Positions 6,999 through 9,875 of a stretch of DNA of 64,000 nt are shown in pieces. A program made the position numbers and the translations under genes. The stretch spans positions 1 to 64,000 of the forward strand of contig CAIKVR010000356.1 of NCBI GenBank assembly GCA_903830915.1, given 5' to 3'. Within the stretch, counting starts at the first letter, position 1, and every line of letters starts with the position of its first letter. The notes beneath the pieces were generated by a model. That model made no database searches, had not been told where the DNA came from, and saw only the letters and a list, made by a program, of their open reading frames with translations. The DNA is from an uncultured Bacteroidales bacterium (GTDB taxonomy: Bacteria > Bacteroidota > Bacteroidia > Bacteroidales > Paludibacteraceae).

Positions 6999-8444
6999 AT
7001 GAAAACACTTCAACCCAAAGCTGTCTGGCAGTTTTTCCACGAAATAACTCAAATTCCACGACCTTCGAAAAAGGAACAACGGATAATAGCATATCTAACT
7101 GATTTTGCTCAAGAACATGGTTTGGAAAGTAAAACCGATGAAGTGGGAAATGTGCTGATTTGCAAACCAGCCACCAATGGCTACGAGAATAAAGTAACAA
7201 TCATATTGCAGGCACATATCGACATGGTGTGTGAAAAAAACAGCGATACGGTATTTAATTTCGATACAGATGCTATTCAAACCTACATTGATGGAGATTG
7301 GGTGAAAGCTCACGGTACTACACTTGGAGGTGACAATGGTATAGGAATGGCAATGATGCTTGCCGTACTGGCATCAAGAGATTTACAACATCCGGCATTG
7401 GAGTGTTTATTTACAGTGGACGAAGAAACCGGTTTGACAGGAGCTTTTGCACTGGACAATAAACTATTGACTGGCAAAGTGTTGATAAATCTGGATTCGG
7501 AAGATGATGGAATTATCTTTATTGGCTGTGCAGGTGGAATTGATACCACTGCTACAATGAATTATCTACCGGAGAAATCACCGGAAAATTATTTTGCTTT
7601 CACTGTTTCAGTGAAAGGTCTCACAGGCGGTCATTCGGGCGATGATATTGAGAAAGGTAGAGGTAATGCCAATAAAATATTGAACCGCTTCCTGTGGACA
7701 CTGAACAAACAAACCGATTTGCGTTTATCAAGCTTCAATGGTGGCAATCTGCGCAATGCAATTCCCCGGGAGGCAACTGCCACAGCCTTAATTCCATGGG
7801 CTGAAAAAGAAAATGTGCGTGTACTTTTCAATCATTTTATAAACGATCTTGAAACGGAAATCGGTGACGTAGAACCCAATCTGAACCTGAATCTGGAATC
7901 CGAAAACATTCCCGAAACGGTTATCGACAAGAAATCGTCCGATGCATTACTGAACGCACTTTATGCTTGCTCTCACGGTGTGATAGCCATGAGCCGCGAT
8001 ATGAAAGGGCTGGTGGAAACATCTACCAACCTAGCTTCGGTAAAAATGCAGGAAGGCAATAACATATTGATTACCACCAGCCAGCGCAGTTCGGTAGAAT
8101 CATCGAAATACGATATCATGCAGCAGGTAGAGTCAGTGTTTAATCTCTGCGGAGCAACGGTTACACACGGTGATGGTTATCCGGGTTGGAAACCAAACTT
8201 GAAATCAAACATTCTGCAAACGGCACAGACAAGTTACAAAAAGCAGTTCGGTGAAGAAGCTCAAATACGGGCTATCCATGCCGGACTGGAATGTGGTCTT
8301 TTTCTCGAAAAATATCCTCAACTGGATATGATTTCTATTGGTCCGCAGATGTACGGCGTACACTCACCCGATGAACGCCTGAGCATCAGTTCGACCGAGA
8401 AATGCTGGAAGTGGCTTGTACAGATATTAGCTGCGCGTTATTAG
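6999..8444 (+). CDS. pepD: Aminoacyl-histidine dipeptidase (cytosol non-specific dipeptidase, M20 family)
   Basis: Full-length 481 aa with ILQAHIDMVCEKN, DGDWVKAHGTTLGGDNGIGMAMMLA, VDEETGLTGA, GGHSGDDI and the ending IGPQMYGVHSPDERLSI. Confidence 0.93.
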   Translation: MKTLQPKAVWQFFHEITQIPRPSKKEQRIIAYLTDFAQEHGLESKTDEVGNVLICKPATNGYENKVTIILQAHIDMVCEKNSDTVFNFDTDAIQTYIDGDWVKAHGTTLGGDNGIGMAMMLAVLASRDLQHPALECLFTVDEETGLTGAFALDNKLLTGKVLINLDSEDDGIIFIGCAGGIDTTATMNYLPEKSPENYFAFTVSVKGLTGGHSGDDIEKGRGNANKILNRFLWTLNKQTDLRLSSFNGGNLRNAIPREATATALIPWAEKENVRVLFNHFINDLETEIGDVEPNLNLNLESENIPETVIDKKSSDALLNALYACSHGVIAMSRDMKGLVETSTNLASVKMQEGNNILITTSQRSSVESSKYDIMQQVESVFNLCGATVTHGDGYPGWKPNLKSNILQTAQTSYKKQFGEEAQIRAIHAGLECGLFLEKYPQLDMISIGPQMYGVHSPDERLSISSTEKCWKWLVQILAARY

Positions 8445-8660
8445 CTTCGCGAAATTTGCTTCGCTGTTATTTGCTTCGCGATATTAGCCCTTGGCGATAT
8501 TTGCCCTTCGGGCATTATTAGCTACGCTGCAATATCATGAACGAAGTGAGTAAATAACGTGAACGAAGTGAAAAAATATCAGCGAAGCTAATAACACGAA
8601 CGAAGTGAACAAATATCAGGAACGAAGTGAACAAATATCAGGAACGAAGTGAAAAATAAT
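8422..8660. repeat. Modular array of short TTC/GAA-centred words separated by A/T linkers, arranged as a large imperfect inverted repeat
   Basis: Words GCTGCGC, GCTTCGC, GCCCTTCGGGC, GCTACGC (left half) and (G)AACGAAGTGA, GCGAAGC (right half) alternate with linkers such as gatatta, gttattt and aaatatc. GTTATTAGCTTCGC (8437-8450) is the exact reverse complement of GCGAAGCTAATAAC (8582-8595). Confidence 0.85.
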
Positions 8661-9875
8661 AAACGAAAAATAATAAACGACCCGGTTTTCGGATTTATCA
8701 ACATCCCGAATGACTTTTTGTACGATATCATTCAGCATCCGTACTTTCAACGACTGAATCGTATCAAACAACTTGGTTTGTCATCGTTTGTTTATCCCGG
8801 TGCGCAGCATACCCGCTTGCAACATTCGTTAGGCGCAATGCATCTTATGGGTGAAGCCATTGCTCAACTGCGCGATGCGGGACATGAAATCACTTCTGCA
8901 GAGGCCGAAGCGGTTCGGGCCTGCATATTGCTGCATGATATTGGTCATGGTCCATTTTCGCATACCTTGGAACATAGTTTGGTAAGTGGAGTAAGTCATG
9001 AGGAGATTTCACTGCTCATGATGCAGCAAATAAATCAGGAACTAAACGGGAAGTTGGAAATGGCGCTGGATATTTTCACTAACCATTATCCTAAAAAGTT
9101 TTTACACCAACTTGTTGCCAGTCAGTTGGATATGGATAGGTTAGATTATCTCAGCCGTGACAGTTTTTATTCTGGTGTTAGTGAGGGAATTATTGGTGCG
9201 GCACGTATTATCAAGATGTTGAACATTTACAACGATCAATTGGTGGTAGAAGCTAAGGGAATTTATTCCATTGAAAAGTTTCTGGTGGCACGAAGGTTAA
9301 TGTACTGGCAGGTTTATCTGCATAAAACATCTGTGGCAGCTGAAAAGATGCTGATGAATATACTGAAACGTGCCAAGGAGCTTGCCAGTCGGGGTATCGA
9401 ACTTTTTGGAACTCCGGCTTTACGTTATTTTCTTTATAACGAGATAAATGATACTAATTTCGGTAAATCAGATGAAGCTTTGTTAAACTTCGCTTTATTG
9501 GACGACTCGGATATTGTTTCGTCCATAAAAGTTTGGTCATCACATTCTGATATAGTGCTTTCCACTCTTTCCAAAGCATTCACTAACAGGCGTTTGTTTA
9601 AGGTACAGGTAAGTTCGCAAGCTATTGATAAATCTTTGAAGGAAAGTCAGTTGAAACAATATGTAGCTCATTTTGGCGTTGACTTTGCAGAAGCAAGCTA
9701 TTTTATGGGTGAAGAAATTGTAACTACCGACACCTACAGCCCGGAAGATGATAGCATCAATATTTTATATAAGGATGGAACAGTTAAAGATATTGCAGAT
9801 GCTTCCGACATGTTGAATATCAATGTACTGACTAAGAAAGTCGAGAAGTATTATTATTGCTATTTAAGGCTTTAA
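8649..9875 (+). CDS. HD-domain phosphohydrolase (dNTPase-like family)
   Basis: DPVFGFINIPNDFLYDIIQHPYFQRLNRIKQLGLSSFVYPGAQHTRLQHSLGAMHLM...LLHDIGHGPFSHTLEH...SQLDMDRLDYLSRDSFYSGV. The start is GTG, inside the preceding repeat array. Confidence 0.9.
   Translation: MKNNKRKIINDPVFGFINIPNDFLYDIIQHPYFQRLNRIKQLGLSSFVYPGAQHTRLQHSLGAMHLMGEAIAQLRDAGHEITSAEAEAVRACILLHDIGHGPFSHTLEHSLVSGVSHEEISLLMMQQINQELNGKLEMALDIFTNHYPKKFLHQLVASQLDMDRLDYLSRDSFYSGVSEGIIGAARIIKMLNIYNDQLVVEAKGIYSIEKFLVARRLMYWQVYLHKTSVAAEKMLMNILKRAKELASRGIELFGTPALRYFLYNEINDTNFGKSDEALLNFALLDDSDIVSSIKVWSSHSDIVLSTLSKAFTNRRLFKVQVSSQAIDKSLKESQLKQYVAHFGVDFAEASYFMGEEIVTTDTYSPEDDSINILYKDGTVKDIADASDMLNINVLTKKVEKYYYCYLRL

Follow-up and report, generated by a model that had tools for sequence, protein, structure and literature searches.

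Short palindromic repeats between bacterial genes have been described in several forms. ERIC, BOX, Correia and Rickettsia palindromic elements are intercistronic or modular palindromes, some of which overlap coding ends, and each has one conserved sequence. REP, BIME and REPIN elements, which are associated with RAYT (TnpA-REP), are short, dispersed intergenic palindromes that lie in operons and between genes, often as alternating composite arrays. The arrays described here, from a 64,000-nt stretch of an uncultured Paludibacteraceae genome (the window) and from other Paludibacter genomes, resemble the latter and are, broadly speaking, dispersed intergenic palindromic repeats: they occur in many copies per genome, are extragenic and are self-complementary. 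In contrast to ERIC, BOX, Correia and Rickettsia elements, they conserve only a grammar, and we set them apart from these elements on that description. Unlike REP sequences, they have neither a GTAG/GTGG or CGTC tag nor a conserved palindrome of 20–40 nt, and each array includes many different words of 7–15 nt with a strict stop/start polarity. We rejected a REP/RAYT system because the tag and the conserved palindrome are absent from the segmented arrays, as is any association with RAYT: Y1_Tnp occurs in 40 of 48 same-genus genomes, with or without arrays, was undetected in the array-bearing genome G059, and arrays were absent from all seven RAYT neighbourhoods inspected.

TAACTGA intergenic arrays, in which 7-nt direct repeats end just upstream of start codons, have been listed for several species, including P. 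propionicigenes WB4 (MacGregor 2015, PMC4679880). Our arrays share with these the short units and the end shortly before start codons. However, TAACTGA repeats have no stems or complementary arms, whereas the Paludibacter words are palindromic and variable, and a TAACTGA-type array (tandem copies of one heptamer) was rejected for this reason. The early promoters of phage N4 carry a C-G-closed 3-nt loop, with a 5′ G and a 3′ A, that is extrudable from supercoiled DNA (PMC4496689). Most array words have such a loop and might, by analogy, be extruded; in the N4 promoters, however, a single 5–7 bp hairpin has a contact sequence that is fixed and is served by its own RNA polymerase, and no such arrangement is evident for the arrays. 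The best Rfam match to window positions 8300–8800 scored 16.9 bits, against a cut-off of 100. A search of the open full-text literature, with subscription papers outside its scope, found no description of the words or of Paludibacter repeats of this kind.

The array between pepD and the HD-domain gene

The array occupies positions 8423–8654 of the window, between pepD and an HD-domain gene (HD), and is composed of short palindromic words and 6-nt A/T linkers. A TTC arm is followed by a GAA arm, and the orientation flips at about 8528–8536:

6999–8444, + strand: pepD-like aminoacyl-histidine dipeptidase open reading frame, 481 aa
8423–8527, + strand: TTC arm, with linkers GATATT/GTTATT and the variants GAAATT and ATTATT; words GCTGCGC (8430–8436), GCTTCGC (8444–8450, 8458–8464 and 8473–8479), GCCCTTGGC (8487–8495), GCCCTTCGGGC (8503–8513) and GCTACGC (8521–8527)
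8437–8450, + strand: left copy of an exact 14-bp inverted pair (partner 8582–8595)
8528–8530, no strand assigned: array centre, orientation flip of the inverted repeat
8531–8654, + strand: GAA arm, with linkers AATATC/AATAAC; words ATGAACGAAGTGAGT (8537–8551), GTGAACGAAGTGAAA (8559–8573), GCGAAGC (8582–8588), ACGAACGAAGTGAAC (8596–8610), AGGAACGAAGTGAAC (8618–8632) and AGGAACGAAGTGAAA (8640–8654)
8582–8595, − strand: right copy of the 14-bp inverted pair
8649–8651, + strand: GTG start codon of HD, within the last GAACGAAGTGA word of the array
8649–9875, + strand: HD-domain protein open reading frame, 408 aa, the downstream cistron

The words, linkers, orientation flip and 14-bp pair had all been listed in the initial annotation, and all were found in place. 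It had called the units TTC/GAA words; such words are present, and the fuller description is of palindromic words round a GNA centre. One linker, GAAATT at 8451–8456, is degenerate. All five copies of GAACGAAGTGA in the window fall within the array; with one mismatch allowed, 1.0 copies are expected by chance, and 1 of 100 shuffles held at least five. The RNA fold of the whole array, proposed in the initial annotation, is more stable than those of shuffles (−63 versus −49.9 ± 3.9 kcal/mol). An intrinsic terminator was rejected, since the hairpin words are followed by GATATT or GTTATT and by no T run.

The array captures the end of pepD and the start codon of HD, as had been claimed. The last pepD codons, GCT GCG CGT TAT TAG, are array sequence within the first units and give the C-terminus ILAARY, and the GTG at 8649 is the earliest possible in-frame start of HD (ATG, GTG or TTG) past the upstream stop. 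The pepD-HD array is present in three species: that of the window, G022 and G015. In G015 and G022 the HD start is an ATG inside an array word, aligned to 8640–8642; these positions read AGG in the window, where the GTG 9 nt further on starts HD. The HD N-termini are MSKAKNNKRK... in G022 and MSIAKNNKRK... in G015. In array-free relatives HD begins ATG AAA AAA CCA AAC... (MKKPNKRK...), and GTG 8649 is close to this start position. The pepD C-termini read ILAARY in the window, ILAWRY in G015, ILAE in G022 and ILAAQ in the array-free G017, and in array-free relatives pepD ends with ...WLxEIL and other residues. Judged from these alignments, the differences at the HD start and the pepD end are lineage-specific recoding by the array. 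The coding start of HD also carries an exact 14-bp tandem duplication, GAAAAATAATAAAC (8651–8678), which is imperfect in G015 and G022.

Distribution, polarity and conserved positions

The pepD-HD array is one member of a dispersed Paludibacter family and not a local feature. BLAST with the array detected more than 10 further arrays on many contigs of its own genome (4.74 Mb, 436 contigs); the counts for this genome rest on pattern and BLAST searches and so are lower bounds. A strict unit pattern was present in 9 of 48 same-genus genomes, with 0 control matches, so that the copies of words and linkers that the initial annotation had proposed to look for exist both genome-wide and in relatives. 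In nine same-genus (Paludibacter) genomes we segmented 74 arrays; 80 regions from eight relatives gave the 74 clusters, each with at least 4 linkers. The patterns used to gather loci contained CTTCG or CGARY...AATAWC, which biases the set toward a GAA loop and these linkers and not toward stem covariation or tandem-GA pairs. In the largest array of the host genome (L021, contig C132, 1186–1608, about 420 bp) a block of several words is itself repeated at a higher order, which suggests recent block duplication. Three contigs of G045 (C199, C216 and C262) have several arrays at their ends, so short-read assemblies probably under-count arrays.

A phylum sample of 396 genomes contained no arrays other than those of the host genome and one chance singleton. 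Across 84,980 species genomes, matches came from Paludibacter and from gut Paludibacteraceae, and unrelated bacteria gave only a few lone words. Similar stop-to-start arrays with other linkers, CCACTTTC or CCACCTTC, were found in gut Paludibacteraceae metagenome-assembled genomes (loci L187, L190, L192 and L200), and the word GTGAGCGAAGCGAAC is common to these and to Paludibacter arrays; the phenomenon may therefore be family-wide in the Paludibacteraceae. In an unrelated gammaproteobacterium, TGAGCGAAGCGAAC lies near other palindromes such as CGTATGCGAGTTATCGCATACG (loci L201, L199 and, from Psychromonas sp. B3M02, L208). In IMG/VR, the pattern of 15-mer plus linker had no match and a second pattern had two, each an isolated copy outside any array; a phage or mobile origin was rejected on these results.

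The placement of the arrays is strongly polar. In nearly all arrays the TTC words precede the GAA words, although an inverted-repeat element reads TTC-then-GAA either way, so for two-armed arrays the order proves nothing alone. In these, the TTC arm begins a median of 10 nt past the stop codon and the GAA arm ends a median of 14 nt before the start codon. Single-arm arrays make up about a third of the total: 14 of 15 GAA-only arrays are beside a start codon, and all eight TTC-only arrays are nearer the stop codon than the start. Among the 68 arrays with both flanking genes, 63 have codirectional flanks, compared with 92 of 144 non-array gaps of 60–450 bp from the same loci and the window, with genes called by a simple longest-ORF rule (63:5 versus 92:52; odds ratio 7.1, p = 5e-6). 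The preference for codirectional gaps is thus genuine. Several single-arm arrays (L110, L118, L170, L181, L185 and others) adjoin imperfect tandem arrays of units such as GTAAACAGTAAGCAG or CAGTTATCAGTGAACAG. These tandem arrays are akin to the published TAACTGA repeats and seem to replace the missing TTC arm.

Array positions are conserved between species. The 63 codirectional junctions include 35 cross-species array pairs in which both flanking genes are homologous, in 13 groups, and the array of one junction is common to up to five species. Orthologous arrays differ in words and in unit number, and their grammar and arm order persist; on the sequences compared, words turn over while the array stays at the same junction. 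Since a genome has roughly ten arrays and thousands of junctions, shared positions would be rare by chance. The initial annotation's suggestion of a one-off local insertion tolerated at pepD-HD does not fit an array found there in three species, within a family that persists at many orthologous junctions. Where pepD lies upstream in other relatives, the junction sequence is different, in some cases another repeat family, and in several array-free relatives HD sits elsewhere. Since array-free relatives keep pepD-HD or carry HD elsewhere, the array is dispensable. The other repeats at or upstream of HD in array-free relatives (L050, L051, L055, L056, L058 and L059) include CCCCCTAAATCCCCC-type, CTTTTCCAAAGTTCTAAACTTTGGAAAAGTT (two species), AAGCGTTGAGTATC-type and CCCGATGGGGC-type sequences.

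Word grammar and RNA folding

Of 448 words, 305 have a length of 7, 9, 11 or 15 nt. Most words of every length class have a GNA centre with a C-G closing pair, and the stems have 2–4 bp, or 2 bp, a tandem G.A and a further 2 bp. Only the linkers AATAAC/AATATC are fixed; the words vary, and their stem positions covary (z of 5–13 versus shuffles for most stem pairs). The 15-mers follow the formula XX-GA-YY-GNA-Y′Y′-GA-X′X′, where XX/X′X′ is at least GT/AC, GC/GC, AC/GT, AT/AT or AG/CT, and YY/Y′Y′ is GC/GC, AC/GT, CC/GG, GT/AC, CT/AG or AT/AT. In 73 distinct 15-mers, 82% of stem cells are paired in register, compared with 16–38% when slid. Most 15-mers retain the tandem GA in each half (103/114 and 104/114 at the two positions). 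Tandem GA is non-palindromic as duplex DNA, and thus the constraint acts on one folded strand. A dyad protein-binding site was rejected, since the conserved GA...GA lacks dyad symmetry and the 15-mers would be left unexplained. On the sense strand, the GAA arm has a 5-fold enrichment of 15-mers with tandem G.A (80:77 versus 15:72, p = 1.4e-7); their G.A pairing is possible in RNA of the GAA strand and impossible in the complement. The GNA rule is also valid in the TTC arm, where mRNA would have UNC loops.

As RNA, 32 two-armed arrays had a mean folding z of −3.9, with 24 of them below −2. They fold mostly as one stem, the longest pair spanning 0.84 of the array, compared with 0.74 in shuffles (p = 1e-4). 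Sense and antisense RNA of the two-armed arrays did not differ in folding (p = 0.62), and this comparison gave no sign of action at the RNA level. A shorter effective stop-start distance was rejected, as the exterior-loop distance from stop to start is no shorter in arrays than in shuffles. The 7-nt words are too short for stable RNA hairpins. The role in mRNA structure or translational coupling put forward in the initial annotation may still apply, but the folding has no preference for sense over antisense.

Readings of the arrays

The reading that we rank first, tentatively and at rather below an even chance, is that an array is mainly a transcribed fold-back spacer between cistrons. The array would be transcribed within a polycistronic mRNA, and its TTC and GAA arms would fold back on each other in vivo into one long irregular stem across the gap. 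Such a stem would set off the two cistrons and bring the stop and the next start close, with translational coupling or re-initiation, or mRNA processing or stability, as the possible outcome. The codirectional bias, the stop/start polarity, the sharing of orthologous junctions, the stem covariation, the significant one-stem folds and the 15-mer enrichment argue for it, and the last of these suits RNA or the coding strand. Equal antisense folding, the instability of 7-nt words as RNA hairpins, GNA in the TTC arm, one-armed arrays, the unshortened stop-start distance and dispensability in relatives argue against it. We rank second, as possible though not probable, a MITE- or REP-like palindromic repeat that is selfish or neutral: a foldback ancestor would have spread through intergenic gaps, units would be gained and lost by slippage and gene conversion, and the codirectional gaps would just be those in which it is tolerated. 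An inverted repeat would give the polarity of two-armed arrays without function, the same junctions hold other repeat families in relatives, with such families in place of single arms, unit number varies among orthologues, and arrays overrun gene ends. However, there is no RAYT link, and positions kept across species with covarying hairpins and tandem G.A are unlike neutral decay or palindrome correction.

Action at the DNA level ranks third and seems unlikely to us. Under negative supercoiling, the cGNAg words would be extruded from the intergenic DNA as mini-hairpins, which would bind a putative protein or act between genes as a sink for supercoils or a barrier to them. In DNA, tandem GA flanked by a pyrimidine and a purine favours sheared pairs, and both arms obey the GNA rule. 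N4 promoter hairpins need the same loop features (5′ G, 3′ A, C-G closing) to extrude at physiological supercoiling (PMC4496689), and d(GNA) triloops closed by CG are known to be stable in DNA (PMC5815330). However, such action predicts neither the codirectional bias nor the excess of 15-mers in the GAA arm of the sense strand, and no binding protein was identified. Template-switch or slippage mutagenesis at quasi-palindromes, making or correcting words without any function, comes last and is improbable: by itself it would yield palindromic words, unit-length indels and rapid turnover, but correction would convert GA...GA to GA...TC, whereas the tandem GA is kept at both positions counted above. 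A further proposal, which we regard as doubtful, is that cells of the genus actively maintain a hairpin-word grammar, with its cGNAg loop and tandem sheared G.A, at fixed intercistronic junctions while the letters turn over. This would imply a reader, whether a protein, an RNA or a DNA enzyme, that senses shape and not sequence and organises operon junctions.

To our knowledge, initiation in the Bacteroidota phylum is not led by Shine-Dalgarno sequences, and the workings of operon junctions there are poorly known. The arrays show repeats taking over stop and start codons. If the same junctions in several species do retain a shape despite turnover of its sequence, something in the cells would read or make that shape, and the arrays would allow a direct test of whether intergenic DNA is maintained at the level of structure.
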